Source of the DNA: Terriglobus saanensis SP1PR4
GTDB lineage: Bacteria > Acidobacteriota > Terriglobia > Terriglobales > Acidobacteriaceae
DNA length: 64,000 nt
NCBI RefSeq assembly: GCF_000179915.2
Contig: NC_014963.1
Location: 2,480,001-2,544,000 of the forward strand
Reading direction: 5' to 3'
The notes beneath the pieces were generated by a model. The model was not told the origin of the DNA. It made no database searches and was given only the letters and a program-made list of their open reading frames with translations. This document shows, piece after piece, positions 19,357 through 52,699 of this stretch. Made by a program: the position numbers and the translations under genes. Positions within the stretch are counted from its first letter, which is position 1; the number at the start of each line of letters is the position of its first letter.

Positions 19357-19647
19357 TTTGACGAAGCTTTCCACTTTCAATCTCCGCTCAGCCAAGAAGT
19401 TTTCGTGTGCCACCCCTTGTGCCACGAAGATCACACGGTACAGATCAAAATGGGTGAGAACCACTTCACTCAAGGACAGAACCAACTAGACGCTTCTCGG
19501 ATGAAGACGTCATTTTATTGAATACAGCGTGGCTTTTTAGCGCGCGAGTTCAGAAGTACACCACCGCTTACGGCACTGGTTTTACCAGTGAAACAATCTC
19601 AGGATGTTAGCTTCCTTCTGCAATCAAGTTCCATAGGAAATGGGAAA

Positions 19648-20214
19648 ATGGCTCCACGGCAATGCGCGGCGGCACAAACAGAGTGTGTAGGGATTGAATA
19701 TATCGACGGGCTATTCAGCTATGCGATGATGCTGACCCGTAATCGTGCTGAGGCCGAAGATCTGGTGCAGGAAACCTATCTTCGTGCGATGCAGGCGATT
19801 GACCGACTGCGCGACAATAGCAACCTGAAAAGCTGGCTCTTCACTATCTTGAGGAATGTCTGGCTCAATCAGCTTCGAAAGCGGAGGGTTGCTCCTCCAC
19901 TCGTTGAGATGGACGGAGATCGTGATCTCATCGAGGAGGTGCCCGGTAAATCGAAAGATTCCTATGCAATTCTTGCGGAAAATGAGGAGGCCGAGCGGGT
20001 TCGTTCGGCCATCCATCTCCTGCCTACGGACTTCAAGGAAATCATCCTACTTCGCGAGTTTGAGGAGCTGTCATATCAAGAGATTGCTAAAGTCTTAGGA
20101 TGTCCTGCAGGTACAGTAATGTCGCGCCTGGGAAGAGCGCGCGGTAAACTCCGAATTTTACTGTCCAATCCACCTGCTAAGGGGTCGCATTCCCCAGAGA
20201 GAAGCACCACATGA
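19648..20214 (+). CDS. ECF-type RNA polymerase sigma factor
   Basis: 188-residue group 4 sigma factor that directs RNA polymerase to a stress or envelope regulon. Region 2 is seen in LFSYAMMLTRNRAEAEDLVQ and SWLFTILRNVWLNQLRKRR; region 4 in PTDFKEIILLREFEELSYQE with helix-turn-helix LGCPAGTVMSRLGRARGKL. I take the ATG at 19648 because AGGAAA lies 7 nt upstream; a GTG 60 nt earlier is also in frame. The stop overlaps the ATG of a downstream anti-sigma gene by 4 nt, the classical arrangement for an ECF pair, so activity is probably set by release from that membrane protein. Regulon unknown. Confidence 0.92.
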   Translation: MAPRQCAAAQTECVGIEYIDGLFSYAMMLTRNRAEAEDLVQETYLRAMQAIDRLRDNSNLKSWLFTILRNVWLNQLRKRRVAPPLVEMDGDRDLIEEVPGKSKDSYAILAENEEAERVRSAIHLLPTDFKEIILLREFEELSYQEIAKVLGCPAGTVMSRLGRARGKLRILLSNPPAKGSHSPERSTT

Positions 20215-21296
20215 TTGACTGCATTGGGTTCGATACTACGATTCAGCTCTTGCTGGATGGAGAACTGACGGGTGAGGAGCTCGAACGAGCATGCGCGCAT
20301 CTGGTGACCTGCGAAGCCTGCGCTGAAAAACTGGCGGAAGAAGAAAAGTTCTCAAAATTACTTCGGAGTAGTTACGTCCCGCAAACCGCGTCCTCCATGT
20401 TGCATGATCGGGTTTTGCAAGTCATACAAACAGCATCTTCCGTTGCTCCGGACGATCTCGCGAAAAACCCTGTGACTTCAGGCCCGATATCTCTCGTGCG
20501 CCGGCGTCCATTTTCGATTGCGCAGTCACGTGGGCAACTTCTGCTGGTTGCGGCCGCCATTCTGATCTGTTTCATTCTGCTTCCCTTCGTACAAAACCGG
20601 GTGCGTGCCAATAGCTTCATTGACTTGGCCATCTCCGAGGACCGCAGCCTATCCGCTCATCTCATACCTCTCGACGTGCAATCGAACTCTCCGAATGAGG
20701 TGACCAACTGGTTTGCGAGCAGAGTAGACTTTCCATTTCGATTACCAAATGCCGGCATGGCCTCCGATGAGGATGCGAAATATACTCTAGCTGGTGGACG
20801 CCTTGTCAGCTTCAAGGGTGAGAATGCTGCTCTGATCGACTTCCACCTGGCGGACGAGCGGATTAGCTTGTTGATTGCCTCTGACAAGTTAGCAAGGGCC
20901 GAGGGAGGCAGCGTAACTATGTCAGACGGCGTTGCGCTCCATCGAAGACAGAGGAAAGAGCACAACATCGTAACCTGGGATAACAAGGGCCTCACGTATG
21001 CCATGGTCATTCCCGCGAAGGCTTCACGCGATGGTAAGTGTGCGGCATGTCATCAAAACTCCCGGCCATCTGCTCAAGCGCAGATTCATCCACCGCAGCA
21101 AACCGAGCCAGATTTCCTTCAGCCTGCTTCCAGCCCAACCAATCTTCACTCCGCACCTCTATACCGTTTCGGAGTGCGGGAGCTACGGCCAGCGGCCTGC
21201 AGAAACTCAGCCAATTTGTGCAACTCCTATACGATCTCTCCGCCTCGACTCCTCTCTGTTGCTCTTCAGAACATGGCACTATTTAGAAAAAGGTGA
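20211..21296 (+). CDS. Membrane anti-sigma factor with zinc-finger domain and periplasmic CxxCH motif
   Basis: 361 residues. The cytoplasmic N-terminus has the ZAS zinc motif H30-x3-C34-x2-C37, expected to clamp the sigma factor encoded just upstream. A single membrane segment lies at about 107-126 (LLLVAAAILICFILLPFV). The periplasmic part resembles the DUF3379/anti-sigma extension seen in this phylum, with a sequence CAACH at 277-281 that fits a c-type haem attachment site. Past the motif the last 80 residues are Pro/Ser/Gln-rich and look unstructured. Sensing of redox state or haem through CxxCH is a hypothesis only. Start ATG overlaps the sigma gene. Confidence 0.8.
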   Translation: MIDCIGFDTTIQLLLDGELTGEELERACAHLVTCEACAEKLAEEEKFSKLLRSSYVPQTASSMLHDRVLQVIQTASSVAPDDLAKNPVTSGPISLVRRRPFSIAQSRGQLLLVAAAILICFILLPFVQNRVRANSFIDLAISEDRSLSAHLIPLDVQSNSPNEVTNWFASRVDFPFRLPNAGMASDEDAKYTLAGGRLVSFKGENAALIDFHLADERISLLIASDKLARAEGGSVTMSDGVALHRRQRKEHNIVTWDNKGLTYAMVIPAKASRDGKCAACHQNSRPSAQAQIHPPQQTEPDFLQPASSPTNLHSAPLYRFGVRELRPAACRNSANLCNSYTISPPRLLSVALQNMALFRKR

Positions 21297-21570: not shown

Positions 21571-24500
21571 ATGAAGACTCCACCGGCGATTAATCGGAAG
21601 GGTCACCTTGCTTTCGCTTCCGCGATCCTCACGCTTCTCATCGTCGGGGCAATCTCCTACCGAGCCACAGTCCTATCGAGCTTTAGTGACGACTGGGTAC
21701 GTCACACCGGTGCAGTACTCGAAAAACTTCAGGAACTCACAGTTGCGATTGAGACGGGCGAATCATCCTATCGCGGTTATCTCCTCACTGCAGACCCTTT
21801 TTATCTCAAAGCGTACCAAGACACGCTGACCAAAACCAAATCGCTCGAAGACTCTCTTCGCAGTCTGACCATAGACAATGTAGACCAACAACAGCGACTC
21901 AGTGTCGTTGAAACGCTTGCATCAAGGCGGATTCGACAACGCGAAACGACCATTGAACTCCGTCGGTCCAGCGGTTTTGCAGCCGCCCTGGCAACGTTTC
22001 AAATAAGTGTAGAGGACCCCTTTCCTGGACAATTCCAAACGGCGCTTCAGGATTTAAAGGAACAGGAACTGCACCTGCTTGAAGTGCGACAGGATCAATC
22101 CAAGACTCGGTTACACCAAGCAAAGACAGTACTCGCTCTGGGAACCTTGTTTACCTTCTTGCTCGCCTGCGCAGCATGGTGGAGTAAACGTACAGATCAT
22201 TCCAGGCAAGAATTAGTCACGGAAGAACTTGAAGTGAGTGAAGAGCGATATCGGCTCCTTCTCGAAGGAATTAAAGACTATGCAATCTTTGCTCTGGACC
22301 CGCTAGGGAAAATCATCAGTTGGAACGCCGGAGCGGAACGAATCAGCGCCTATAAAGCAGATGAGGTCGTCGGGGAAAACTTCTCCCTGTTCTTTCCTAC
22401 GAACGATGTCGCTGATGGCAGACTAGAAGAACTTCTTCGCGTTACGGCCCTCCACGGCAGACGCGAAGAAGAAGGCATCTGCGTGCGGAAGGACGGCTCG
22501 CGATTCCTTGCGAGTGTTGCCCTCACAGCGCTCAAAGACTCGGAAGGAACTTTAAGCGGATACTCTGTGATCAGTCGCGATCTCACTGAGAGCAAGGAAT
22601 CCGAGGCCAGATATCGCGGTCTGCTGGAAGCGGCCCCAGACGCCATGGTGGTCGTAAATCGGAGCGGAAACATTGTGCTCCTCAACATCCAGGCGGAAAA
22701 GAAGTTTGGCTATCACCGCGACGAACTTGTAGGACAGCCAGTAAAGAACATCATCCCGCAGGGTTTTGCGGAAAGATTAATTGCGGATGAGACGCGCACC
22801 GCTACCGAAGCTCTCGCCCAACAGATCGGGACTGGAATTGAACTCATCGCTTTACGAAAAGATGGCAGTGAGTTTCCTATCGAACTGATGCTCAGCCCGC
22901 TCGAAAGCGCTGAAGACATTCTTGTCACTGCCGCAATTCGCGACATCAGTGTTCGCAAAGCCGCCGAAGTACATCTGGCTCAAATGGAGAGCCGCTACCG
23001 AGGTCTCCTGGAAGCCGCACCGGATGCCATGGTCGTAGTCAACCAGGAAGGTGCCATCGTCCTTCTCAATGTCCAAGCCGAGAAGCAGTTTGGCTATCGA
23101 CGTGACGAATTGGTAGGGCAAGCTGTAACCAACATCATCCCCGAGGGATTTGCCGAACGCATCATTGCAGATGGAACGCGCTCTGCAGCAGAGGCCTTGG
23201 CCCAACAGATCGGTACGGGAATCGAACTTATCGCATGCCGCAAGGATGGTAGCCAGTTCCCTATCGAGATCATGCTTAGCCCGCTGGAAAGCCAGGAAGG
23301 CATCCTGGTTACTGCTGCCATTCGCGATATCAGCGTTCGCAATGCCGCAGAGCTCCATCTGGCCCAGATGGAAGGTCGTTATCGAGGCCTTCTAGAGGCA
23401 GCACCCGACGCCATGGTGGTCGTCAATCAAGAGGGGGCGATCGTCCTTCTGAATGTCCAGGCTGAAAAACAATTTGGCTATCGTCGGGACGAACTGGTGG
23501 GCCAGGCTGTGACCAACATCATCCCGGAGGGATTCGCCGAGCGCATCATCGCTGACGGAACACGCTCTGCGGCTGAAGCTCTCGCGCAGCAGATCGGAAC
23601 AGGCATAGAACTTATTGCAAGTCGGAAGGACGGCAGTCAGTTTCCGATCGAGATTATGCTGAGTCCTCTGGAAAGCCAGGAAGGCATCCTGGTTACTGCT
23701 GCCATTCGCGATATCAGCGTTCGCAACGCCGCAGAGCTTCACCTCGCCCAGATGGAGAGCCGCTATCGAGGTCTTCTGGAAGCCGCACCAGACGCCATGG
23801 TGGTGGTAAATCAGGAGGGCGCCATCGTCCTTCTCAACGTTCAGGCGGAGAAGCAGTTTGGATACCTGCGCGACGAGCTTCTCGGACAGAAGATGACCAA
23901 CATCATCCCGGAGGGATTCGCCGAGCGCATCATCGCCGACGGCACACGTTCCGCGGACGATGCCCTGGCGCAGAAGATTGGAACCGGGATTGAACTGATC
24001 GCACGCCGCAAGGACGGCAGCGAGTTCCCTATCGAGATCATGCTCAGCCCGTTGATTAGCCCGGAAGGCACCCTTGTTACGACGGCGATTCGCGACATTA
24101 GTGTTCGCAAGGATGCAGAAGCGCATCTTCTGCATAAGGTGGAACAGCTCAACCGGTCCAACGAAGAACTCGGCCACTTTGCCTACATCGCTTCACACGA
24201 TCTGCAAGAGCCTTTGCGCATGGTCGCAAGTTACACGCAGCTGCTTGCACGCAGGTACAAAGGCAGACTTGATTCCGATGCAGACGAGTTCATCGCTTTC
24301 GCCGTGGATGGCGCAAGCCGGATGCAGCGACTTATCAAGGACCTGCTCACCTTCTCTCGCGTGGAGACGATGGGAAAACAACCGCTTGTCATTTCAAGCG
24401 AGGAGGCGCTCAACCAATCTCTCAGAAACCTCAGGGGGGCCATCGAAGGAAGCGGAGCTGTCATAACTTATGGCCCACTACCTACGGTACTCGCCGATGA

Positions 24501-24840
24501 GACCCAACTTATCCAACTCTTTCAGAACTTGGTTGCGAACGGAATTAAGTACCATACCACCGGCATCCCGCGCGTGCATATCTCTGCCCATCTGGACGTT
24601 GCAAAAAAATGGGAGTTCTCGGTCAAAGACAATGGCATGGGAATAGATTCACAGTACTTTGAAAAGATATTCGGTATGTTTCAGCGCCTGCACAAACGCG
24701 AGGAGTTTGACGGGACAGGAATAGGACTCGCTATCTGCAAGAAGATTGTCGAACGACATGGCGGAGTACTCTCCGTGCAATCAGAGCTTCAACATGGTTC
24801 AACTTTCAGTTTCAGCTTGCAGGGAGGAAAAGCAGCTTGA
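21571..24840 (+). CDS. Membrane histidine kinase with CHASE3-like sensor and five PAS domains
   Basis: 1089 residues. N-terminal membrane helix (about 13-32), a periplasmic four-helix region resembling CHASE3 (TGESSYRGYLLTADPFYLKAY), second helix (about 186-208), a divergent PAS domain (about 222-345), then four tandem 128-residue PAS repeats (about 348-859), a HisKA domain with phospho-acceptor His876 in ASHDLQEPL (phytochrome-like kinase subtype) and an HATPase domain (KDNGMGIDSQYFEKIFGMFQ; GTGIGLAICKKIVERHGG). It overlaps a following Rcp1-like receiver by 2 nt and that in turn overlaps a GGDEF-EAL protein, so it probably feeds a phosphorelay that tunes cyclic di-GMP. Signal unknown. Confidence 0.92.
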   Translation: MKTPPAINRKGHLAFASAILTLLIVGAISYRATVLSSFSDDWVRHTGAVLEKLQELTVAIETGESSYRGYLLTADPFYLKAYQDTLTKTKSLEDSLRSLTIDNVDQQQRLSVVETLASRRIRQRETTIELRRSSGFAAALATFQISVEDPFPGQFQTALQDLKEQELHLLEVRQDQSKTRLHQAKTVLALGTLFTFLLACAAWWSKRTDHSRQELVTEELEVSEERYRLLLEGIKDYAIFALDPLGKIISWNAGAERISAYKADEVVGENFSLFFPTNDVADGRLEELLRVTALHGRREEEGICVRKDGSRFLASVALTALKDSEGTLSGYSVISRDLTESKESEARYRGLLEAAPDAMVVVNRSGNIVLLNIQAEKKFGYHRDELVGQPVKNIIPQGFAERLIADETRTATEALAQQIGTGIELIALRKDGSEFPIELMLSPLESAEDILVTAAIRDISVRKAAEVHLAQMESRYRGLLEAAPDAMVVVNQEGAIVLLNVQAEKQFGYRRDELVGQAVTNIIPEGFAERIIADGTRSAAEALAQQIGTGIELIACRKDGSQFPIEIMLSPLESQEGILVTAAIRDISVRNAAELHLAQMEGRYRGLLEAAPDAMVVVNQEGAIVLLNVQAEKQFGYRRDELVGQAVTNIIPEGFAERIIADGTRSAAEALAQQIGTGIELIASRKDGSQFPIEIMLSPLESQEGILVTAAIRDISVRNAAELHLAQMESRYRGLLEAAPDAMVVVNQEGAIVLLNVQAEKQFGYLRDELLGQKMTNIIPEGFAERIIADGTRSADDALAQKIGTGIELIARRKDGSEFPIEIMLSPLISPEGTLVTTAIRDISVRKDAEAHLLHKVEQLNRSNEELGHFAYIASHDLQEPLRMVASYTQLLARRYKGRLDSDADEFIAFAVDGASRMQRLIKDLLTFSRVETMGKQPLVISSEEALNQSLRNLRGAIEGSGAVITYGPLPTVLADETQLIQLFQNLVANGIKYHTTGIPRVHISAHLDVAKKWEFSVKDNGMGIDSQYFEKIFGMFQRLHKREEFDGTGIGLAICKKIVERHGGVLSVQSELQHGSTFSFSLQGGKAA
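22612..24147 (+). repeat. Four tandem 384-bp PAS-coding repeats
   Basis: The motif YRGLLEAAPDAMVVVN recurs every 384 bp exactly (unit starts near 22612, 22996, 23380 and 23764). Units 2 and 3 differ at only about two of 128 residues yet differ at many synonymous positions across their first two-thirds, while a 59-nt tract (23284-23342 and 23668-23726) is identical. Unit 1 is the most divergent. Old duplication with purifying selection plus local gene conversion would explain this. Confidence 0.9.
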
Positions 24841-25301
24841 TAGAGATTTCAAAAGAGAACCGTAAACAGCTTCAAGTCCTCCTGGTCGAGGACAGTCTTG
24901 GTGATGTTCGCCTTACACGCGAAGCGTTCCGTGAAGTGAATGACACGATCCCGCTGCATGTTGTGTCCGACGGTGTGGAAGCAATGTCGTTTCTCGAACG
25001 CACGGGAGAACATGAGAACGCGCCACTTCCCGACCTGATTTTGCTCGACCTGAATCTCCCTAGAATGGACGGTCGTGAAGTCCTCGGCAACATCAAGAAG
25101 AACGATAAGTTCAAGATGATCCCCGTACTCATCCTTACGACCTCTGAAGCTGAGGTCGATATCAATAACAGCTATCGGCTGCACGCGAACTGTTATTTGA
25201 TTAAGCCCGTTCAATTTGAAGAGTTTGAGCTGCTGGTGAAGAGCGTCAATGATTTCTGGCTCACGAAGGTAAAGCTTCCTAAGCTTGAGTCTCCCAAGTG
25301 A
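24837..25301 (+). CDS. Single-domain response regulator (Rcp1/CheY-like)
   Basis: 154 residues, one receiver domain and no output domain. VLLVEDSLGD gives the acidic pair, Asp71 in LLDLNLPRMDG is the phospho-acceptor, TTSEAE the switch Thr and LIKPVQ the conserved Lys. It resembles Rcp1-type partners of phytochrome-like kinases, matching the kinase upstream. The start is a TTG at 24837 overlapping the kinase stop (TTGA), with AGGGAGGAAA just upstream; no ATG is available. The stop overlaps the next start as GTGA. Confidence 0.92.
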   Translation: MIEISKENRKQLQVLLVEDSLGDVRLTREAFREVNDTIPLHVVSDGVEAMSFLERTGEHENAPLPDLILLDLNLPRMDGREVLGNIKKNDKFKMIPVLILTTSEAEVDINNSYRLHANCYLIKPVQFEEFELLVKSVNDFWLTKVKLPKLESPK

Positions 25302-27385
25302 ATAAAAAGCCCATTAAAGCGCTACTCGTGGTGGAAGACAATGCGGGAGATGCTCGCCTGCTGCTCGAGATGCTAAACGAAGGCCCACATACCATTGACG
25401 TCACTGTCGTTAGCAGTCTGAGAGATGCGGAACTTCATCTTGTACTACACACTTACGATATCGCTTTGCTGGACCTCGGCCTGCCGGATGGCAATGGAAT
25501 GGAAGTGGTGCGGCGAGCCCGGTCCGCCGCACCCAGCCTTCCCTTGGTCGTACTCACAGGGTTGGATGACGAGGCGATGGCCGCGCAGACTTTAAAAGAA
25601 GGTGCGCAGGACTATCTCATCAAAGGAGAGATCGAAGGGCGTGGCCTACTCCGTGCCTTACGCTATGCAGTCGAACGCAAAGCAATGGAAGAATCCCTCT
25701 TTACCGAAAAAGAGCGAGCGCAAGTGACGCTTAATTGCATTGCGGACGGCGTTGTGTGTACAGATAGCTCTGGCAACATCACGTTTCTCAATGTCGTTGC
25801 AGAGCGCATGACCGGATGGTCTTTGGAAGAAGCGTCTGGAAGACCTATGTCCGAGGTATACCGGATCTTCGACGCCACGACGGGGATCGCGACGAATCTG
25901 GCAAATCCTCTTGCCTTTGGAAACGATGGTATTTATGACAAACCGAATAGCGCGCTGCAGCGACGCGACGGAATCATGACGCCGATCGAAAACTCGATCT
26001 CTCCCATCCTGGATCGCCTCGGATGTACAACGGGCGCGGTGATGGTGTCACGCGACGTAAGTGCAGCCCGGCGCATGGCCATAGAGATGATTCATTCTGC
26101 CGAACACGACTTTCTCACGGGCCTTCCCAACCGGATGCTACTCCATGACCGCGTCAGTCAAGCGATTGCCTTGGCGATTCGGCAACAGCATAAGGTAGCT
26201 CTGCTCTTCATCGATGTAGATGGCTTCAAACATATCAATGACTCGCTCGGACATCCGGCGGGGGACAAGCTACTCCAGTCTCTCGCTCACCGCCTTGTTG
26301 GCTGTGTACGCTCTTCGGACACAGTGAGTCGCCAGGGAGGCGATGAGTTCGTGGTCCTGCTCTCCTCTGTTCGACTCGCCGAGGATACCGCAGTGGCGGC
26401 GAAGAAATTGCTGGCCGCGATCGCAGATCCTCACCTGGTTGACCGGCGTGATCTGCATGTCACGGCGAGCATTGGCGTGAGCGTTTATCCGGATGACGGC
26501 ACGGACGCGGAGACGCTGATCAAGAATGCCGACACAGCCATGTATCAGGCAAAGGCCCATGGGCGACAGGGATATCAGTTCTTTAAAGCGGTGATGAATG
26601 TAAAGGCCGTTGAGCGTCAATCCACAGAAGAAAGCCTCCGGAGTGCACTCAAGCGACAGGAGTTCCACGTACATTATCAGCCGAGGGTGGATCTTCGCAC
26701 CGGCCAAATCATCGGCGCGGAAGCTCTCTTGCGCTGGTCCCATCCGGAACGGGGGAATATTCCGCCTGACCAATTCATTCCCATTGCTGAAGATTGCGGT
26801 CTGATTTTACCCATTGGCGAATGGATCCTTCGCGAGGCCTGCGCACAGACGCAGAAGTGGCTTCAGGAAGGCCTGCCCCCTATTACGATTGCCGTAAACA
26901 TCTCAGGTGTTCAGTTTGGAAATGAGGATTTTCTCGCTGACGTCTTCGCCATCCTGGAAGAAACGGGACTAGATCCGAGGCATCTCGAACTGGAACTGAC
27001 GGAAAGCGTACTGATGAAACACGCTGAATCTACGGAAGTCATTCTCAAGACACTACGCTCGAAGGGTATCCAGGTCTCGGTCGATGATTTCGGTACTGGT
27101 TATTCCAGCCTGAGTTACCTAAGCAAGTTTTCGCTCGATGCGCTCAAGATCGACCAATCCTTCGTGCGCCGTATCATCAGTTCGCCGGAAGACACAGCCA
27201 TTGTGACGGCCATCATCAGCATGGGACGAAGCCTCAGCCTTCAGGTGGTCGCGGAAGGCGTCGAAACGCTGGAAGAACTGGCGTTCCTGCAGGCACATCA
27301 ATGCGATGAAGCGCAGGGATATTTCTTCGGCAGACCTTCGCCCCCCAAGAATTTGCAGATCTGCTTGCAGTTCCACGCTGAGTAA
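25298..27385 (+). CDS. Receiver-PAS-GGDEF-EAL cyclic di-GMP enzyme
   Basis: 695 residues: receiver (about 8-125, Asp59 in LLDLGLPDGNG, switch Thr and Lys present), PAS (about 140-255), GGDEF at 347-351 with an RSSD sequence five residues upstream (product-inhibition I-site RxxD), and EAL from 475 with LELTES, VDDFGTGYSS, LKIDQSF and AEGVET intact. Both diguanylate cyclase and phosphodiesterase activities are therefore chemically possible. Starts at GTG 25298, overlapping the preceding receiver stop. As the last gene of the kinase operon it is the likely output. A convergent paralogue lies at 27836-29944. Confidence 0.93.
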   Translation: MNKKPIKALLVVEDNAGDARLLLEMLNEGPHTIDVTVVSSLRDAELHLVLHTYDIALLDLGLPDGNGMEVVRRARSAAPSLPLVVLTGLDDEAMAAQTLKEGAQDYLIKGEIEGRGLLRALRYAVERKAMEESLFTEKERAQVTLNCIADGVVCTDSSGNITFLNVVAERMTGWSLEEASGRPMSEVYRIFDATTGIATNLANPLAFGNDGIYDKPNSALQRRDGIMTPIENSISPILDRLGCTTGAVMVSRDVSAARRMAIEMIHSAEHDFLTGLPNRMLLHDRVSQAIALAIRQQHKVALLFIDVDGFKHINDSLGHPAGDKLLQSLAHRLVGCVRSSDTVSRQGGDEFVVLLSSVRLAEDTAVAAKKLLAAIADPHLVDRRDLHVTASIGVSVYPDDGTDAETLIKNADTAMYQAKAHGRQGYQFFKAVMNVKAVERQSTEESLRSALKRQEFHVHYQPRVDLRTGQIIGAEALLRWSHPERGNIPPDQFIPIAEDCGLILPIGEWILREACAQTQKWLQEGLPPITIAVNISGVQFGNEDFLADVFAILEETGLDPRHLELELTESVLMKHAESTEVILKTLRSKGIQVSVDDFGTGYSSLSYLSKFSLDALKIDQSFVRRIISSPEDTAIVTAIISMGRSLSLQVVAEGVETLEELAFLQAHQCDEAQGYFFGRPSPPKNLQICLQFHAE

Positions 27386-27835: not shown

Positions 27836-29944
27836 TTAAACAACATTCTGGATGCCGATTTGCAGCAAACGCTCAAACTCATGCGCAACCAGCGGGTGGC
27901 TGAAGAGGTAGCCCTGTCCTTCGTCGCAACGTTGACCCTGCAGGTAAACTTTTTGTTCGATCGTTTCGATTCCCTCTGCCACGACAATGTAGTTAAGGTT
28001 CCTTCCGATACCGATGATCGCGCTGATGAGGATCCCATCGCGGGCTCCGCCGCCAATCTGATTGACGAAAGACTGATCGATCTTCAAGATGTCGATCGGA
28101 AACTGGCGCAGGTAACTGAGGCTTGAATAACCGGCGCCGAAGTCATCGATCGCGAGCTGTACTCCCATCTGCCTCAATTCACGAAGTACGGAGGCCGTTG
28201 AGTCCGCGTCTTTCATCAGTACACCCTCCGTCAGTTCAAGTTGAAGACAACCAGGTTCCAACCCGGTCTCTCGCAGGATGTTCTTAACACCTTCAACGAA
28301 ATGCCTGTCCTGAAACTCGACCGCCGAAACATTGACAGCGATTTTGATGGATGGGAGACCCCGCGTCTGCCACAAACTCGCTTGTCGGCAGGCTTCCCGC
28401 ATCACCCAGCGACCTATTCGAACGATCAGTCCACTGCTCTCTGCTGCGGTCACAAAGTACGCAGGGAGTAGAAGTCCTAGCATAGGATCCTGCCAACGGA
28501 TCAAAGCCTCAGCCCCTGTAATCTGCCCGAGAGCAAGACTCACTTTAGGCTGATAATACAAACAGAACTCGTTCTGTTCCAGGGCGCGACGTAACCCCAC
28601 CTCTAGAGATTGCCGTTCGGTGGCCTTCAATCCCATCTCCGGCTTGAAGAATCGGATGGCGTTACGCCCGGTTTCCTTGGCTTCGTACATCGCAATATCT
28701 GCGTTGTTCAATACGGTTTCAGCATCATCTCCATGATCGGGATAGAGGCTGATGCCAAAGCTCCCGCTGATCTGGATGCAGTGCTCATCAATGTTGTAGG
28801 GCGCACCGATACTCAGCAGAAGCTTTTTGGCACTGGATGCTGCATCTGCGGCATTTTCGATCTCCGGGAGCAGAATGACGAACTCATCTCCTCCCTGGCG
28901 GCTCACCGTATCGGAGTTGCGCAGACCCGCAAGTAGCCTGTCTGCGACTGCTTGAAGAAGCTTGTCCCCAATGGCATGTCCCAGTGAATCATTGACGGCT
29001 TTGAAGTAATCCAGGTCCAGAAACATTACGGCGAACGGTCTGTGCTTGCGGTGAGAGATAGAAATTGCCTGAGAAATTCGATCGCTCAGAAGTATACGGT
29101 TGGGAAGCTTTGTAAGTGGATCGTGGTTTGCAGAGGAAGCCATCAGGATCGCTGTAGCACGCGCCTCGCTCATATCGTGAAACACGATGACCGCCCCGAT
29201 CACGGTGCCTACCGAGTCGTGAATGGGTGCAGCGGTGTCATCGATGACGCGTTCGGTACCGTCTCGATGGAGGAGCACGCAACCCGAAGGCAAACCCACC
29301 GCACGATTCAGATCAATTGCCCTTTGCAGAGGGTCCGGCGCGATCTCCCGAGTCACGCTATCCAGGATGCGAAAGACCTCGGAAAGTGGTTGCCCTAGCG
29401 CTTCCAACCGCGTCCAGCCCGTCATCTTCTCCGCGGCACCATTAAGATAGGTGACGCGGCCTAAGAGATCCGAAGAAAGAACCGCGTCTCCGATTGAATC
29501 CAGCGTGACCAGAGCACGATTTTTTTCTACGGAGAGCAGGTCAACAGCACTGCTTTCGATCGCGCGGTGGAGGGCCCGCGACAGAGAGTAATTGTCTAAA
29601 TGCCTGGGCAATAGGTAGTCCTGCGCCCCATAGCGGACGGCTTCTTTCGCGACGGCTTCCTGGTCTTCACCGACGAGGACCAGCACCGGTGTCTGGGCCC
29701 AGGCCGGATTCACTCTGCGCAATGCCTCCAGACCTTTGTTATCGGTCAGAGAAAAGTCCAGCAAGATGGCATCGTATTTATTCTGCTGCAGGCGTCGAAC
29801 CCCATCACGGAGTCGACTTACACTTTCGACATTGAAGGAAATTTGGTCGGAGATACTGAGAGCCGAGCGGATCTGCTTCGAGATCTGCTTATTGCTTTCG
29901 ATAAGCAAAATGTGAAGCTTGGCTTCTTCGCGTACAACAACCAT
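27836..29944 (-). CDS. Degenerate receiver-PAS-GGDEF-EAL protein
   Basis: 702 residues, same architecture and length as the protein at 25298-27385, and clearly paralogous. GGDEF at 351-355 is intact with an RNSD I-site upstream; EAL, VNVSAVEF, LELTEGVLM, IDDFGAGYSS, ILKIDQSF and AEGIET are all present. The receiver is altered: the acidic pair is ES (LLIESN), the switch Thr is lost (LVLVGED) and the conserved Lys is missing near YLLPRH, although an Asp stays in LLDFSLTD. It is probably not controlled by ordinary phosphorylation. ATG 29944 chosen for the GGAG 6 nt upstream; longer starts at 29974 and 30079 have none. Confidence 0.92.
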   Translation of the reverse strand: MVVVREEAKLHILLIESNKQISKQIRSALSISDQISFNVESVSRLRDGVRRLQQNKYDAILLDFSLTDNKGLEALRRVNPAWAQTPVLVLVGEDQEAVAKEAVRYGAQDYLLPRHLDNYSLSRALHRAIESSAVDLLSVEKNRALVTLDSIGDAVLSSDLLGRVTYLNGAAEKMTGWTRLEALGQPLSEVFRILDSVTREIAPDPLQRAIDLNRAVGLPSGCVLLHRDGTERVIDDTAAPIHDSVGTVIGAVIVFHDMSEARATAILMASSANHDPLTKLPNRILLSDRISQAISISHRKHRPFAVMFLDLDYFKAVNDSLGHAIGDKLLQAVADRLLAGLRNSDTVSRQGGDEFVILLPEIENAADAASSAKKLLLSIGAPYNIDEHCIQISGSFGISLYPDHGDDAETVLNNADIAMYEAKETGRNAIRFFKPEMGLKATERQSLEVGLRRALEQNEFCLYYQPKVSLALGQITGAEALIRWQDPMLGLLLPAYFVTAAESSGLIVRIGRWVMREACRQASLWQTRGLPSIKIAVNVSAVEFQDRHFVEGVKNILRETGLEPGCLQLELTEGVLMKDADSTASVLRELRQMGVQLAIDDFGAGYSSLSYLRQFPIDILKIDQSFVNQIGGGARDGILISAIIGIGRNLNYIVVAEGIETIEQKVYLQGQRCDEGQGYLFSHPLVAHEFERLLQIGIQNVV

Positions 29945-30403
29945 GGATTGCTCCGGGAGTACCAAAGAGTTCATCCGAATCTTAGACTTGCGTAGATTAC
30001 GCTTTATGCCCGGAACAGAACACATTAATCCGCGTGATAAATAAGGATGTACGTTCTCACTCTTAATGCGATAGCACATCGCGCCAATTTACGTCACGGT
30101 GTCGACATTCAAGGTAATCGCCTAAGAGGTCGTCTCTGAAGAGAACTCTCATATCTCAGTTATTTCCTGTGGGCTCATCCACGATCGCTCCCGCTGCCAG
30201 GCTGTTGCCGTCCACACCGTCAGAACCCGCCGATAAAACGGAGATGTTCTCCGAGGCTTCAATCCGGGTGGCGCTATACAAGGCGAAATGCGTGTTCCTC
30301 TCACCTAGACCACGTTGGAGTTTTTTGTGGCTTGGTTGTTTGTCGACCTGGACCCCTCCGACATCCGTACCGTCACTTCTCCCACAAGATCAGACAGACA
30401 CGG
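29945..30403. other. Promoter-containing gap upstream of the GGDEF-EAL gene
   Basis: No gene recognised. It must contain the minus-strand promoter for the 27836-29944 gene. Open frames on the plus strand from 30169 show no similarity until about 30404, where remnants of a lactate permease begin; the earlier part may be eroded upstream sequence of the same gene. Confidence 0.4.
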
Positions 30404-46631: not shown

Positions 46632-46682
46632 AACGAAGCTGCCACCTGCCTTGGCATGCCAAGGCAGGCGGCTCGCTTCGTT
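46632..46682. terminator. Long hairpin at the end of the giant modular gene
   Basis: Contains a perfect 24-bp palindrome (46645-46668; CCTGCCTTGGCA and its complement) flanked by AACGAAGC (46632-46639) and GCTTCGTT (46675-46682) arms. It overlaps the stop codon of the 46681-52488 gene. No U-run follows on either strand, so it may be an mRNA-end stabiliser or a mobile palindrome rather than an intrinsic terminator. Confidence 0.55.
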
Positions 46683-49600
46683 ACTGGTAGATCTCGATCG
46701 CGCTTGCCTTCGGTTGATCAGCAGATCCTGGAGAATATTGAACCGTAATATTCCCGGCAGAATCCGCCGTCGCCGTGAACTCTTCAATCACGGCCTTGTT
46801 TGCTGCACCTGCAGTAGCGACGATATCGAAGTGAGGAAGAACTGTCAGACCGTTGATGGCCACGTTGAATACCCGTTTGCCTACCGCAGTCCAATAGAAC
46901 TCCGCAAAGTGAAGCCGGACCGTGTATTTTGCTCCCGGCGTTAGATTGGGAAGAGTGTAAGTGAAGGTGCCGCCCGAACGCTCGTGTTGATAGACCGCGA
47001 GCGGAGCCGGACTTACAGCAGTGGTTGTGTCGATCGCATTTCCAGTCCCGGAGCTATTGCCTCCGGCAAAGTCTGCGTCCAGTGCGAAAGGCGCAATAGC
47101 TGTCCCCGCCGCAGTGCTACCTGCAGCAATCTGATAAATCGGAGTTCCAACGACTGCCTTCCCAGGAACAACAACTACTTCGTTGGACGCCGAAGAGATG
47201 CCTCCAGCGTTCATCGCCTTTACGGTGTAGTAGTAGGTAGTTAGATTCGTAACCGTCGTATCGATAAAGTAGGTTCCCGCGATTCCCGAAGCAATAGGGG
47301 TGCTGGCTTCACCACCCGGGGTCGTGCCACGGGAGACCTGGTAGGAACCTGTAGGCCCGTTACCCGGAGTCCATGAAAGGGATACCTGCTTGTTGCCACC
47401 TGTTGGAAATAAGCCCGTGGGAGCCGTTGGCGGCGGCATGGAACCTCCATTGGATACGATTTCGATTCCATTGACCTGGGGATTATTCACGCCATGGGGA
47501 CCTGCAATAAAACCAATCAGGATTTGTCCGCTGCTGTTTGCCGTGGCGGTAAACGATTGGACCACTGCAATATTTGCGCCTCCCGCCTTCTGAACGATAT
47601 CGAAGGCTGAAAGTACGGTCAGACCATTGAGTGTGACATCGAAGACACGCTGGTTGGTGGCTGTGAAATACGTCTCGGCGAAGTGCAGGTAAACGGTGTA
47701 GGTATTACCAGGTACAAGTGCTGGGATAGTGTACGTAAAGGTGCCAAAGCGATTGGTCTGATAGACCTGCATGGGAGCAGCATGGGCGACACCAGCCGTA
47801 TTGACGGTGTTGGTTGTCGAGCTGGTAGTACCGCCGCTGACCAAGCTACTTTGATCGGCGCTGAAGGAACCGACCGCTGCTGCGCTTCCTGCGTCGATCT
47901 GATAGATGGTCACTGCCGTAGAGGCGGCTTGTGCTGGAGTAGTCGAGACCTCGTTGGACTGGGCCGAGACGCCGGCAGTATTCGTTGCGGTGACCTTATA
48001 AAAATAGGTCGTGCCGTTCGTAGCCGTCGTATCGGTAAACGTGGTGGACGTAAGATTCGACGCGATCGGAGCCGCGTTTTCTCCGCCTGCCGTCGTGCCA
48101 CGAAGAACGTTATAAGAGGTTGCTCCGGTGCTTGCATTCCAGGTAAGCGATACAGTCGAGTCGCCAGCAATAGCGGTCAAGCCGGTAGGTGCCGATGGAA
48201 CAACGATGGGTGGAATCGGCATTGCAGAGACTTCGTTCGATGCCGTCGACGAACCGTTTGAGTTGACCGCTTTGACGAAGTAAAAGTACTTCGTTCCATT
48301 AGTCACTGCAGTATCTGCATACGATGTACCGGCGAGATTCGTCGCGAAGGCTGCCTCAACTCCTGAGGCCGTTCCGCGGAAGACGCTGTACGTCGTTGCT
48401 CCTGTGCTTGCCGACCAGGTGAGGTTGATCTGACCGGTTCCGCCAACCGCCGAAAGATTGGCAGGAGGCTGAAGTACAGGCGCACTAATCGTGATGGTCA
48501 ATGTCCCGGAACCAGTGCCGGTGGCGTTCGTAGCTGTAATCGTTACCGAGGTAGTGCCTGAAGTGGTTGGAGTTCCAGTAATGAGACCGGCAGCATTCAC
48601 GCTCAATCCGGCGGGAAGCCCGGTCGCACCAAAGCTCGTAGGAGTCTGGCTCGCGGTAATTTGATAGCTGAAGCTTGAGCCGACGACTCCACTTGCAGTG
48701 GTCGAACTGGTGATCGAAGGTGCTATGCGTGTGGATGCGTCGGAGACGAAGAATCCAAAGACCCTGAACTCATCGATGGAATAGCCGAAGGCCGTGTTGC
48801 GTACAGTGCCTGTCATGCGAACGAAGCGACCGATGGCTGGGGCGGTCTGCGGGTGGGAGATGACGTCTCCTCCGCCAGTAGGGTTATTAGTAATGGTCGC
48901 GAATGGCAGCCAGTTCGCCGGTGTGGCCGTCTGGTCATTGCTGTACTCGAGGACATAGTTTTTGGCCGACGCGTTCTGCCAATCGATATCGACAGAGTCG
49001 ATCTGGGCCGATGCGCCGAGGTCGATGTAAAGCCACTCAGGATCCACTTTCTGGGTGCTCTCCCATCGGCTGTTGTCGTTCGCAATGCCGTCCACGGCGT
49101 TCGCAGGAACATTGCCTGCGTTCGTGCTGAGGGCAACCGTTGTCTTGAAGAGAGCCAGGTTGACGTCAGTCTGTACATTGAGACTCTTGCCCAACTGTCC
49201 CTGGATGATTGCCAAATCCTGAGCATTGATGAGGCCATCGCAGTTGACATCCATCACTGCGTTGGTCTGCGTCACGGGAATGCCGCTGACCTGAGACGTG
49301 ACAGCGTTGAGATCGGTTTGATCGACTCTTCGATCTCCTGAAACATCGCCCTGGAGCACGTTGAAGGGAATATCGGCAGTACCGGGAATGGTGACGGCAA
49401 CACCGGTCTCTTTGCCGGGCACATCATTCACAGCGTAGAAGTTTGCGAGATGGAGGTTGAGGGCCTGGACGTTTTGTACTCCGGTCAAAGCCACGGTTGC
49501 GACCGTCTGCGTCGAGTCGTAGGTCACAGAGCTGACCTGCCCCACTGCAGTTTGAGTTGCGCCCTGCTGCACACCGAGCGTGGCGGTGATACCAGTAACT

Positions 49601-52488
49601 GGCACGGGGAAATGCAGAGCAACGGTATAACTACCCGGAACCGATCCGACGCGCGACTCAACTTGCGCTGCGCTGCCGGGATACAAGGTAACACCAAAGG
49701 TGCCAGCTGTTCCCTGTGCTTGCAAAGAGGCGGCCTCCAATACAGGAGGCGCCAGGAGGCTGGTTACGGTAGCTGGAGGAAGTGCAATGTTGTAGAGGCG
49801 AGCGTCGTCGATCTCGCCCTGAAAGCCGGACACAACATTGTTGATGGTCTCTTCGCCCATGATGAGAGTACCCGGGCTGTCCGCTTCTTGAGCTGCGGCC
49901 GTCTGTGACTGCTGCACACCATTGACATAGATAAAACGCTTTGCCTGCAATGCATCCTGCACCAAAGCAAGATTGGTCCAGACACCGAGGGTTACGGGAG
50001 GTCCGACCAGATCTCCGTTCGCTCCACGGAAGACCCACCGATTCGCAGCATTGACCAAGAGCCCATATGGGAAAGAGGTACCAGCAGACTTGATGAGAAC
50101 AGGCTGCTCCGCACCGGTAAGATTGTCTACTTTGACCCAGGCCGAAAGCGTGAAGCTCTGGCTGGCGGTAAATTGAAGAGCCGGGCTGTCCGCAACGATT
50201 AGTTCGTCCGTCGACTGCGTCCCATGGAAGGCCCACGCTCCACCGATATAACCCTCCGGGGAAAAGAGAGCTTCATCGCGGGCCGGTATTGTGGCTGTGT
50301 GTCCGTTGCCCGTGACGTCTACGACGCTGGTCGCGTTTGGCCCATCGTCCATAGGCCAATAAGCCACCAGACCGGAGGGCTGGAAGAGTGGGAAGGTCGT
50401 TCCCGAAGCCACATTCGTGCTGAGAGAATTGCCGTTGCTGTTGGTAGAAACCACCTTGTAGAAGAACGTTGTTCCCGCAGCAAGACCTGTGTCCGTAAAA
50501 CTCGTCGAGTTCGAGGCAGAAGTCCCAACCGTCGAAAAATTAGCAGTCGAAGAAGTCGCCCGCATAATAGTGAACCCTGCGAACGCTGTCCCCGAGGGAA
50601 CGTTGTTGGTCCAGGAGAGAGTGATCTGACTGGAAGAGATTCCCTGTGCGGTGAGATTCGTGGGCGCCGCAGGAGTTCCTGGAGCCGCAGGAAAGAGACC
50701 GTAAGCAAAGAGGTAGCCTTGATTCGTGGTGCCGTTGAAGCAAGTGAGATAAGCTTTCCCGTTGGTCACCGTCGGGGTTGTGAACTTTGCGGTCGTGCAA
50801 CCGGAGTTCGCCACACCAGGAACGTTCGTACGAGAGGAAAAGATGTGATTGCTGAGATTGGTCGCGTCATACGCTTCGAGAGAGGACTTAACCGCCCAGA
50901 CGATTCCATTGGTCGTTCCGTTGGATGAGATGAAGACCGTAGCGCCTTTATTGGCGAAGGTATCGTTTGTGCCTGTGGTCTGGGGAGGATCCGAAAACTT
51001 TACGACGCTATTGATTTCATCGAGTTGGAGTGTTCGCCGCTCTACGGGATTGCCGCCTGGAGCATAGTAGATGCTCCCATTGAAAAAGGCCGGTGTATTA
51101 AAGATGGAATTAGTATTTGGTTCGACGATCTCCTGAATGGCACTGCCGTCATTTGCGTTAATACCGCCCAGGTTATCGCGATCCAGCAGATAGAGCGTAC
51201 CCGCCTTGCCACCGCCCACCATCAAGTGAGTATGGTTTCCAGGTTGATCCGGCAGAAGCAACAAGCCGCCACCTCCTAGGTCTCGATCACCGCCGGGGAG
51301 ACCCGTCATCCCAAAGCCGTCATTGAGCAACTGCCAGTCATGAGGGGTGAAATAGTCCATAGTGTCCTGCTGGGATATCTGGATGGGACCGGAAAGGCTG
51401 ACCGGGAGCTTAAGAACACTTTCGCCCCAATCGGCTGTCGGGCCGTTTTGATCCCAGGCACCGTTACCGGTTATGAAATATAAATTGCCTGCATCGTCGA
51501 TCGCTGGCGAAGCGCCACCTTGCCAAATTCCTGCCTCCCCGGCGGCATGATCAGTCTTATTGGGTGGTTGCGTCGGATCTCCATTCACGGTTCCACTATT
51601 CGGAGTTGCGATAAAAGTCTTCACAAGCTTCAAGGTGCTGGCGTCAAAAGCCAGAATTTCGCCGTAATACGGCTGGGTATCGCTATGCGACGCATAGGTT
51701 AGATAAAGAATGCCCTGAGAGAGAACCATCGCTGAGCGGAGATGTTCGTGGAGTGCCGAAAAGGGAATTTTCCCCGTTGGAGCCGTAACAGGATCGAGAT
51801 CGTTTTGCTTCTGAAACGGCGTTCCATCGAAAGAGATCGTCGTCGAATCCAGAACAACCGGACTGCCGGGCTTGTCCAGGCCAGTCTTCACATCGAGCGC
51901 GTGAAGAAATTGCTTGTAGGGAGTTGGGGTAAACGCAGGATTTTTGACCTTGGCCACAACGTAAATAGTTCCGGACACGGGGTCAATCACAGGGGTCGTC
52001 GTAATACCAAGCTCTATTAGAATATCGCTCGAGCTTACATCGGTCTGGGGAACGGTTGTTGCACCAGCAGGGGTAAGATTCGCCTTCCACAAGGGAGAAG
52101 AGTTCGTCCCGTTGGGATTCGCCCCTTGGAGATCCGCGTCCGCATCGAAAGCATAGATGGAGTTATGCTCAGTGGCAACATAGACCACATTGTGAGATTT
52201 TGCATCGCTGAAACTGCCGGGCAGTTTGGCTAACGTGGCCGCGCTCAAGAAAAGCGGCTGGCCATAGGTTTGTCCGTCTAGTACCTGCGTAAAGAGAAGA
52301 CCGAAGTTTCCGGTGGTCCCTACGTTTGCGGGAGTGAGGATTGTTTCGCTTGCGTTATTGCCGGTATGCTGCGGGTTTACCTGCCATGTAGTGATGTCCG
52401 GACCGGCGGTCTGCGCCATCAGGGCAGACGCCAGCACAAAGGTAGCGACGAAGGCTACAAAAAATCCGGGAATCGATTGGGGTCTCAT
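46681..52488 (-). CDS. Giant secreted modular protein: PQQ-like propeller, FN3, LamG, dockerin, discoidin, malectin
   Basis: 1935 residues. Signal peptide (FFVAFVATFVLASALMA), then approximately: PQQ-like beta propeller 26-596 (NVVYVATEHNSIYAFDAD; GNLYFITGNGAWD), FN3 603-693, LamG/concanavalin 700-890, beta domain 909-1043, type I dockerin duplicate 1048-1101 (DVSGDRRVDQTDL and DVNCDGLINAQDL), F5/8C discoidin 1101-1245, putative Ig 1256-1336, two FN3 1338-1516, malectin 1523-1679, FN3 1686-1774, malectin 1779-1935 (RLHFAEFYWTAVGKRVF). No catalytic domain is recognised: binding and adhesion are likely. ATG 52488 has GGAGA just upstream. Lies next to the pqq genes, but PQQ binding by the propeller is unproven. 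Confidence 0.88.
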   Translation of the reverse strand: MRPQSIPGFFVAFVATFVLASALMAQTAGPDITTWQVNPQHTGNNASETILTPANVGTTGNFGLLFTQVLDGQTYGQPLFLSAATLAKLPGSFSDAKSHNVVYVATEHNSIYAFDADADLQGANPNGTNSSPLWKANLTPAGATTVPQTDVSSSDILIELGITTTPVIDPVSGTIYVVAKVKNPAFTPTPYKQFLHALDVKTGLDKPGSPVVLDSTTISFDGTPFQKQNDLDPVTAPTGKIPFSALHEHLRSAMVLSQGILYLTYASHSDTQPYYGEILAFDASTLKLVKTFIATPNSGTVNGDPTQPPNKTDHAAGEAGIWQGGASPAIDDAGNLYFITGNGAWDQNGPTADWGESVLKLPVSLSGPIQISQQDTMDYFTPHDWQLLNDGFGMTGLPGGDRDLGGGGLLLLPDQPGNHTHLMVGGGKAGTLYLLDRDNLGGINANDGSAIQEIVEPNTNSIFNTPAFFNGSIYYAPGGNPVERRTLQLDEINSVVKFSDPPQTTGTNDTFANKGATVFISSNGTTNGIVWAVKSSLEAYDATNLSNHIFSSRTNVPGVANSGCTTAKFTTPTVTNGKAYLTCFNGTTNQGYLFAYGLFPAAPGTPAAPTNLTAQGISSSQITLSWTNNVPSGTAFAGFTIMRATSSTANFSTVGTSASNSTSFTDTGLAAGTTFFYKVVSTNSNGNSLSTNVASGTTFPLFQPSGLVAYWPMDDGPNATSVVDVTGNGHTATIPARDEALFSPEGYIGGAWAFHGTQSTDELIVADSPALQFTASQSFTLSAWVKVDNLTGAEQPVLIKSAGTSFPYGLLVNAANRWVFRGANGDLVGPPVTLGVWTNLALVQDALQAKRFIYVNGVQQSQTAAAQEADSPGTLIMGEETINNVVSGFQGEIDDARLYNIALPPATVTSLLAPPVLEAASLQAQGTAGTFGVTLYPGSAAQVESRVGSVPGSYTVALHFPVPVTGITATLGVQQGATQTAVGQVSSVTYDSTQTVATVALTGVQNVQALNLHLANFYAVNDVPGKETGVAVTIPGTADIPFNVLQGDVSGDRRVDQTDLNAVTSQVSGIPVTQTNAVMDVNCDGLINAQDLAIIQGQLGKSLNVQTDVNLALFKTTVALSTNAGNVPANAVDGIANDNSRWESTQKVDPEWLYIDLGASAQIDSVDIDWQNASAKNYVLEYSNDQTATPANWLPFATITNNPTGGGDVISHPQTAPAIGRFVRMTGTVRNTAFGYSIDEFRVFGFFVSDASTRIAPSITSSTTASGVVGSSFSYQITASQTPTSFGATGLPAGLSVNAAGLITGTPTTSGTTSVTITATNATGTGSGTLTITISAPVLQPPANLSAVGGTGQINLTWSASTGATTYSVFRGTASGVEAAFATNLAGTSYADTAVTNGTKYFYFVKAVNSNGSSTASNEVSAMPIPPIVVPSAPTGLTAIAGDSTVSLTWNASTGATSYNVLRGTTAGGENAAPIASNLTSTTFTDTTATNGTTYFYKVTATNTAGVSAQSNEVSTTPAQAASTAVTIYQIDAGSAAAVGSFSADQSSLVSGGTTSSTTNTVNTAGVAHAAPMQVYQTNRFGTFTYTIPALVPGNTYTVYLHFAETYFTATNQRVFDVTLNGLTVLSAFDIVQKAGGANIAVVQSFTATANSSGQILIGFIAGPHGVNNPQVNGIEIVSNGGSMPPPTAPTGLFPTGGNKQVSLSWTPGNGPTGSYQVSRGTTPGGEASTPIASGIAGTYFIDTTVTNLTTYYYTVKAMNAGGISSASNEVVVVPGKAVVGTPIYQIAAGSTAAGTAIAPFALDADFAGGNSSGTGNAIDTTTAVSPAPLAVYQHERSGGTFTYTLPNLTPGAKYTVRLHFAEFYWTAVGKRVFNVAINGLTVLPHFDIVATAGAANKAVIEEFTATADSAGNITVQYSPGSADQPKASAIEIYQ

Positions 52489-52596
52489 GAGTTCTCCAAA
52501 GCCAAGCATTGAGGGTTGGACAACAGACAGCTCAAGCGCGCCGGCGGAGAAATCCGCTGGAAGCTGAGAGCAGGAGGGTGCAAAGGAAAGATACGG

Positions 52597-52699
52597 GGCC
52601 CTTTTCTTAGTTCTGCTTCGACACACTTTTACTATTGAGAAGAGAGTTGCAAAGTAAAAACACCAAGGCGCCTTTTTTATTCCGCTTCGAAATACTTTT
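52597..52699 (-). repeat. Pair of imperfect direct repeats upstream of the giant gene
   Basis: Two 33-34-bp copies (52597-52630 and 52667-52699) share GGCcCCTTTT, a CTGCTTCGA-like core and ACTTTT, with start-to-start spacing of 70 bp (near seven helical turns). They lie 109-211 bp upstream of the start codon, where promoter control elements are expected. The remaining intergenic sequence (52700-52911) is AT-rich near 52670-52720 and otherwise shows nothing recognisable. Confidence 0.4.

Follow-up and report, generated by a model that had tools for sequence, protein, structure and literature searches.

How can two neighbouring domains of one protein be the same as protein and different as DNA? 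The question is raised by a sensor histidine kinase gene of Terriglobus saanensis SP1PR4, located in a stretch of 64,000 nucleotides (the window, from whose first letter all positions are counted), in which four PAS units of 128 residues follow one another in frame. A first-pass annotation, made from the sequence alone, had described four nearly identical PAS repeats at 22612-24147. The four in-frame units are there, each starting one codon earlier than this span implies (Table 1), and the near identity holds for units 2 and 3 but not for the other five pairs. These differ from one another at 20-31 residues (21 between unit 4 and each of units 2 and 3, 31 between units 1 and 4), which corresponds to 76-84% identity in protein and 71-76% in DNA. 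All six pairs are synonymously diverged, with Nei-Gojobori pS values of 0.68-0.81.

Table 1. Position of the kinase gene, its domains and PAS units, shared tracts and downstream genes in the window.
Feature	Position	Strand	Basis or remark
Sensor histidine kinase, CHASE3-PAS0-(PAS)4-HisKA-HATPase, 1089 aa	21571..24840	+	ORF and Pfam
Hydrophobic segment 1, probable transmembrane helix	21601..21660	+	Kyte-Doolittle 19-residue maximum 1.93, residue 11
CHASE3, probable extracytoplasmic sensor	21691..22095	+	PF05227, E 1.4e-24, residues 41-175
Hydrophobic segment 2, probable transmembrane helix	22126..22185	+	Hydropathy 1.80 at residue 186
PAS0, PAS domain outside the repeat family	22282..22590	+	PF13426, residues 238-340; no match to the unit profile at a domain E of 1e-20
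PAS unit 1, 128 aa	22609..22992	+	Differs from units 2 / 3 at 21 / 20 residues
PAS unit 2, 128 aa	22993..23376	+	2/128 residues differ from unit 3
59-nt identical tract	23284..23342 (unit 2) = 23668..23726 (unit 3)	+	Codon-shuffle P = 5e-5
Continuous helix predicted between units 2 and 3	23332..23400 (model residues 247-269)	+	AlphaFold2 model m6ac2e1f10a24
PAS unit 3, 128 aa	23377..23760	+	Unit profile and pairwise comparison
43-nt identical tract	23510..23552 (unit 3) = 23894..23936 (unit 4)	+	Codon-shuffle P = 5e-5
PAS unit 4 (last), 128 aa	23761..24144	+	C-terminal linker HLLHKVE, HLAQME in units 1-3
HisKA dimerisation/phosphoacceptor domain	24172..24366	+	PF00512, residues 868-932
HATPase_c domain	24496..24819	+	PF02518, residues 976-1083
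Single-domain response regulator	24837..25301	+	PF00072, E 8.8e-17; overlaps the kinase stop codon
REC-PAS-GGDEF-EAL protein, possible output partner	25298..27385	+	Pfam

The CHASE3, PAS, HisKA and HATPase_c domains of the ORF all score above their curated gathering scores, which identifies the product as a CHASE3/PAS sensor histidine kinase. The order of the domains and their hydropathy suggest that the array, placed after a hydrophobic segment and before the kinase domain, is cytoplasmic. When the best 10-14 first-look candidates of the T. saanensis genome were scored, four matched the unit profile at E <= 1e-42, and every one of them is within the kinase gene. A single-domain regulator and a REC-PAS-GGDEF-EAL protein like the two that follow the kinase are found downstream in many related loci, the regulator downstream of the array gene. 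In the window the REC-PAS-GGDEF-EAL protein has a second one as its neighbour on the opposite strand (27836-30079). Upstream of the kinase (19588-21296, forward strand), a sigma-70-family factor with an ECF match is followed by a zf-HC2 zinc-finger protein; the two are likely a sigma/anti-sigma pair. Antisense ORFs of 168 and 261 aa run across the PAS array (22852-23358 and 23392-24177, reverse strand) and are probably a by-product of its codon structure.

The only residue differences between units 2 and 3 are C/S at residue 82 and G/S at residue 128. The DNA of the two units differs at 68 of 384 bases (82% identity), with a Nei-Gojobori pS of 0.70 and pN of 0.010. The pair thus differs as the annotation had described it, at about two residues and at many silent sites, and the observation named there as speaking against constraint, a synonymous divergence no higher than the nonsynonymous one, is the reverse of what was found. 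We used a pairwise maximum likelihood model (GY94-type, F3x4) to estimate omega, which is 0.0026 (support up to 0.010) with a dS of 2.9; values of dS below about 1.2 are rejected, and the estimate of omega rests on this lower bound because the silent sites are saturated. Under the same model, the portion outside the 59-nt tract shared by the two units has an omega of 0.0024, with support up to 0.008, and a dS of no less than about 1.8. The loss in log-likelihood is 3.8 units at an omega of 0.02, and only 1.3 at 0.01. Since the units are 98% identical after silent saturation, selection on the protein seems to maintain their identity, which does not look like a remnant of recent duplication. Strong protein constraint combined with synonymous drift, as first proposed, is supported both by this omega and by the conservation of the unit across its family.

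The first-pass annotation had also proposed that recoding protects the array from recombination. Outside the 59-nt tract, 62 of the 106 codons that specify the same residue in both units differ, while 65.7 +/- 4.7 are expected from random recoding, modelled as independent draws from the codon usage of the window. The longest run of identity in this portion is at most 14 nt; runs shorter than those in random recodings were not found. The third-position GC content (GC3) is 0.586 in unit 2, 0.602 in unit 3, and 0.570 in the gene as a whole. The silent sites are randomised, not over-diverged. As an adaptation, protection through recoding is therefore not supported: the codon difference is no greater than random, the runs are no shorter, and the two identical tracts point to exchanges that still happened. 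The lower homology between units 2 and 3 is a consequence, and these tests give no sign of selection for it.

Relative to the family consensus, unit 2 and unit 3 have 14 departures each in 127 columns, and 13 of these are common to both, with the same residue. Seven of the 13 are written with different codons, and several are at columns that vary freely in other units. The two units appear to have inherited one version of the sequence, which was kept through silent saturation. Judged from these 13 common departures, the identity of the pair exceeds what constraint across the whole family would produce.

The unit family was collected with a scan of genome contigs, which gave 52 loci, and further loci were added from genome searches. 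The 49 named array loci are from Acidobacteriota (31), Pseudomonadota (14), Chloroflexota (3), and Nitrospirota (1), with the proviso that the labels of metagenome-assembled genomes (MAGs) can be wrong. The unit is present in at least 13 of 300 genomes from the family of T. saanensis and at least 2 of 19 from its genus, in at least 2 of 396 genomes of a phylum-wide sample (T. saanensis itself counted), in at least 24 of 396 from the order of a Granulicella genome (a survey that overlaps that of the family), and in at least 3 of 297 from the order of the genome that harbors locus L066; all of these counts are lower bounds, for which scoring was confined to the best 10-14 first-look candidates of each genome. 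The distribution of the family is patchy. After duplicate loci of one gene were merged (69 to 63 genes) and copies of the window from its own genome were dropped, the final set comprised 63 genes with 138 units. The analyses excluded any unit or pair for which the aligned codons were too few (under 100-110, depending on the comparison). As the annotation had advised, the number of repeats was compared between relatives; it ranges from 1 to 8 units per gene across species, each represented by one genome, and the 23 single-unit entries include genes truncated by contig ends.

Neighbouring units are spaced by 128 aa in 60 of 67 steps, and at 69 of 127 columns a single residue accounts for at least 95% of the 116 units compared. 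Between unit 2 of the window and 28 selected units of other loci, identity is 72-90%. For comparison, the window's CHASE3 and PAS0 domains have identities of 27-47% and 29-70%, respectively, where matched in 58 loci, and the kinase core has 62-79% in the 28 loci of this kinase type, four of which encode it in a separate ORF. By these identities, conservation of the unit roughly equals or exceeds that of the kinase core and is far above that of the sensor end of the protein. In 8 of the 58 loci the ORF that carries the array matches the GGDEF-EAL protein, and in others the kinase match is only 26-46%. Given these differing outputs, the unit looks like a sensor cassette that has been combined with several of them. 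A genome of the same genus (G005) has three units that are 72-80% identical, with silent divergence similar to that in the window. The nearest foreign unit, the best of 164 compared (a set that still contains some duplicate loci), is unit 1 of L032 from Granulicella sapmiensis, with identities of 90% and 89% to units 2 and 3, respectively.

To see how exceptional units 2 and 3 are, we compared 9,451 pairs of units, among which 6,489 have different codons at 45% or more of their same-residue positions. The window pair ranks first of these 6,489 for the fewest residue changes, with 1 in 127 aligned columns (the second difference, at residue 128, falls outside these columns); the next pairs have 8 in 105 and 9 in 126. 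The 40 other within-gene pairs with this much codon difference have 10-34 residue changes. The other within-gene pairs with dS below 3, 110 in number, have a median omega of 0.057 and a minimum of 0.0146 (0.0146-0.017 for the lowest ones); comparisons of omega were limited to dS below 3 or replaced by codon-difference fractions, the omega values of pairs with very large dS (about 4-123 among the 20 lowest) being unreliable and left unused. Because the support interval of the window pair, which reaches 0.010, almost meets the lowest of the other pairs, its excess amounts to an outlier of one. The pair is at or just beyond the extreme of the family and is not a separate class.

The tracts of 59 and 43 nt had been noticed in the first reading of the sequence and taken for local conversion tracts. 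Both are exact at the positions given there and are not random. Shuffles of codon columns reached each tract length in 1 of 20,000 trials, and neither length was ever reached in 3,000 random recodings. Across the family, 23 of 145 within-gene pairs were positive in the tract test at p <= 0.01 versus 4 of 300 between-gene pairs, with positives in 13 of 40 multi-unit genes; pairs taken from the same gene are not independent of one another, and the eight-unit array L028 alone contributes many. With the first gene set the corresponding numbers were 19 of 111 and 5 of 300. By all three approaches the tracts are conversion-like. We infer that they reflect gene conversion, a process that the tract test does not tell apart from crossing-over.

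Units of one gene also resemble one another more broadly. In arrays of three or more units, the inner units cluster by gene: 18 changes are needed on the tree of 43 units from 15 genes, while 300 shuffles have a mean of 33.6 and a minimum of 28. This tree was calculated from 112 core columns and, with few columns and weak branches, holds as a whole but not for single branches; the unit of L092 was left out of the clustering trees. A stable class of last units was considered and rejected. With the linker columns included, such a class needs 12 changes versus 29.5 after shuffling, and without them 28 versus 29.5. The signal disappears with the linker, which indicates that the linker and not the PAS core sets the last unit apart.

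Two units of one MAG share 244 identical bases: a first unit that follows PAS0 (at the contig end of L070) and a later one preceded by another unit (at the contig start of L061). Of the 161 bases before these two units, only 77 agree. Contig ends are met at or near a unit by 10 of 60 array ORFs. Since long-identical units coincide with contig ends, young arrays are probably under-reported by short-read assemblies. An absence of very recent duplicates, suggested by a minimum within-gene pS of 0.19 in the first 52 genes, was not upheld; it is weakened by L152, where the codon difference is 0.05, and is biased by assembly. A greater divergence between neighbours than between next-but-one units was seen for units 2, 4, and 6 of L028 and is not general over 8 arrays. 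In this array (L028, 4617-7685) the codon difference among units 2, 4, and 6 is 0.14-0.16, and that to their neighbours is 0.21-0.42, as if two-unit blocks had been duplicated. A seven-unit array (L169, genome G1250) from the same order as the genome of L066 has third and fourth units that differ at 2 residues, with a codon difference of 0.16.

The heme PAS proteins FixL and DosP are the nearest solved relatives of the units by sequence and fold. By sequence, the closest structures are FixL 1y28 (E 9.6e-16) and DosP (E about 1e-8); by fold, they are 1d06 (Z 15.5, rmsd 2.4, 113 aligned) and 8js5/8js6 (Z 14.6-14.8). The heme ligand of FixL is a histidine, which aligns with unit position 57. Among 116 units this position is L in 105, I in 10, and H in 1, and units 1-4 of the window have L, I, I, and I; the histidine of FixL is present in none of the four. 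Because 115 of the 116 units have Leu or Ile at this position, binding of heme as in FixL is unlikely. The window protein further differs from FixL in that its units form an array and in that its kinase, with 300.1 bits, is far below the cut-off of 850 for the NCBIfam FixL equivalog NF041777. The lone histidine is in the L092 unit, which is on the longest branch of the unit tree.

In an AlphaFold2 model of the four units (mean pLDDT 70.6), helices of 23 residues are predicted to run from the end of each unit into the next; both models calculated have moderate confidence (70.6 and 73.3), and no pocket or interface was read from them. The predicted helices between units and the nearly fixed period suggest a dimeric rod, to which whole units could be added without shifting the phase of the helix. 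The annotation had pictured the identical sensors as a multivalent ligand or oligomerisation module. A period of 128 aa with a continuous helix would fit a dimeric relay rod at least as well. Work on PpsR describes PAS domains linked by a helix that consists of a C-terminal extension and the next N-cap (PMC3949515). The modelled helices of the array would resemble this arrangement; unlike PpsR, the array has near-copy units and an almost fixed period of 128 aa.

The closest parallel to the evolution of the array is polyubiquitin. PMC10457151 describes head-to-tail units that are alike in protein while their silent sites diverge and that resemble one another more within a gene than between species; concerted evolution, birth-and-death evolution, and purifying selection have all been debated as explanations. 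Three traits of such concerted evolution are seen in the PAS units. Inner units, compared over their 112 core columns, are closer within a gene than between species, silent change has accumulated with the protein fixed (omega of 0.0026 and dS of at least about 1.2 for units 2 and 3), and the tract test (23/145 versus 4/300) indicates crossing-over or conversion between repeats. In contrast to polyubiquitin, the array is part of a bacterial signalling protein that is not known to be cleaved to monomers, the divergence of units 2 and 3 from those in the other genomes compared is about 10% or more, and the silent-saturated pair is a neighbouring one. The array thus offers a natural bacterial test case for the debate over polyubiquitin, concerted evolution versus purifying selection, and a test case for what repeated PAS domains do in signalling, be it relay, tuning, or spacing; since relatives have 1-8 copies, the question is accessible to experiment.

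Periscope Proteins, according to PMC8201768, are surface stalks with tandem folded domains of very high protein identity, variable number, and high DNA identity. The array likewise has tandem folded near-identical domains in variable number (1-8 across species). However, the DNA identity is 82% for units 2 and 3 and 71-76% for the other five pairs, and the domain order places the array between a hydrophobic segment and a kinase domain. In large multidomain proteins, according to PMC8201768 and PMC4660218, adjacent domains are usually less than 50% identical, which is taken to limit misfolding. Titles and abstract openings of the literature, with subscription journals mostly outside the scope of the search, yielded no account of this PAS unit family or of recoded identical PAS repeats. 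The kinase is a PAS-array protein with extreme and well-measured protein identity without DNA identity; it evolves like polyubiquitin and is, by the measure of DNA identity between repeats, not a Periscope Protein, nor is it a FixL.

The reading that we favour, and consider probably correct, is that of a FixL-like PAS rod shaped by duplication, occasional conversion, and purifying selection with silent drift. Equivalent FixL-like units without the heme ligand would form a rod between the membrane CHASE3 sensor and the kinase, with a continuous helix that keeps the units in phase every 128 residues. New units would arise through duplication of inner units; in domain repeats, frequent duplication within the middle of the repeat region is reported (PMC1553488). 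Short conversion tracts would pass between copies now and then, and strong purifying selection would keep the protein nearly fixed while synonymous sites drift to saturation. Old neighbours would then be alike as protein and look recoded as DNA, and units 2 and 3 may be held tightly because they are side by side in equivalent positions. Domain order, spacing, silent saturation, the very low omega of the pair, clustering by gene, and the non-random tracts were observed directly; that the units work as a dimeric relay or sensor rod is our inference. What weighs against this reading is that constraint across the family does not by itself account for units 2 and 3. In a bolder reading, which we think rather unlikely, adjacent identical units would be locked: a mutation in either would do harm unless the other matched it, and the private sequence with its 13 departures would have been kept through complete silent turnover, well past the general constraint on the family. 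Alternatively, silent divergence itself would have been selected to keep the array intact. To the simpler notion that any two copies look alike because of family-wide constraint, and that nothing special joins units 2 and 3, we give little credence. The many columns nearly fixed across the 116 units speak for it, as does the unit of G. sapmiensis that is 90% identical to unit 2 at a pS of 0.78; it is already strained by the 13 common departures and by the first rank of the pair among 6,489, with one residue change where others have at least 8.

Selection for the recoding itself would require that units 2 and 3 duplicated fairly recently and that silent differences were favoured since they lower homology and thereby prevent the loss of a needed unit. 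Residue changes that are too few for the synonymous distance when compared to the family, the lack of any identical run above 14 nt outside the tract, and the existence elsewhere of long-identical units, which coincide with contig ends, are compatible with such a history. Yet we doubt it strongly: neither the codon difference nor the run lengths depart from random in the direction it demands, over the 8 arrays examined, divergence is not consistently greater between adjacent inner units than between non-adjacent ones, and the tracts of 59 and 43 nt show that exchange still took place. A mixed origin, with one unit acquired through recombination from a related species that had the same protein and another codon history, is very unlikely. 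The patchy family reaches into other phyla, and donors could exist; however, the best of the 164 foreign units is just 90% and 89% identical to units 2 and 3, the GC3 values of the two units are alike and close to that of the gene, and any donor would have to carry these 13 departures from the consensus as well. Least of all do we expect an artefact of sequencing, assembly, or design. Tandem repeats are often misassembled, and the 10 of 60 array ORFs that hit contig ends at or near a unit are a reminder of this. The T. saanensis genome, in contrast, is a single contig of 5.095 Mb, the two copies differ at 68 bases, nearly all of these differences are synonymous and in frame, a pattern that errors would not produce, and tandem units of this family are present in 39 other genes. 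The concern voiced at first reading that the number of repeats might come from assembly is therefore an improbable one.

Internal repetition was also compared in 358 ORFs by shifting each against itself. An internal 80-aa match of at least 40% identity was found in 42 ORFs with the unit motif, the match in the window kinase having 100% identity in amino acids and 80% in nucleotides, and in 13 ORFs without the motif, the best of which has 85% and 78%, respectively. A response-regulator ORF beside the array of L029 (7403-8533) contains a repeat shifted by 157 aa with 85% identity in amino acids and 78% in nucleotides, and is probably a tandem receiver pair. The window has two other long ORFs of note. 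The ORF at 46681-52626 (reverse strand, 1981 aa) has malectin, fn3, laminin-G-like, F5/8 type C, and dockerin domains. The ORF at 58273-63738 (forward strand, 1821 aa) has NHL repeats and 11 stretches of the Big_3_5 bacterial Ig-like type, with a best internal 80-aa match of only 51%.
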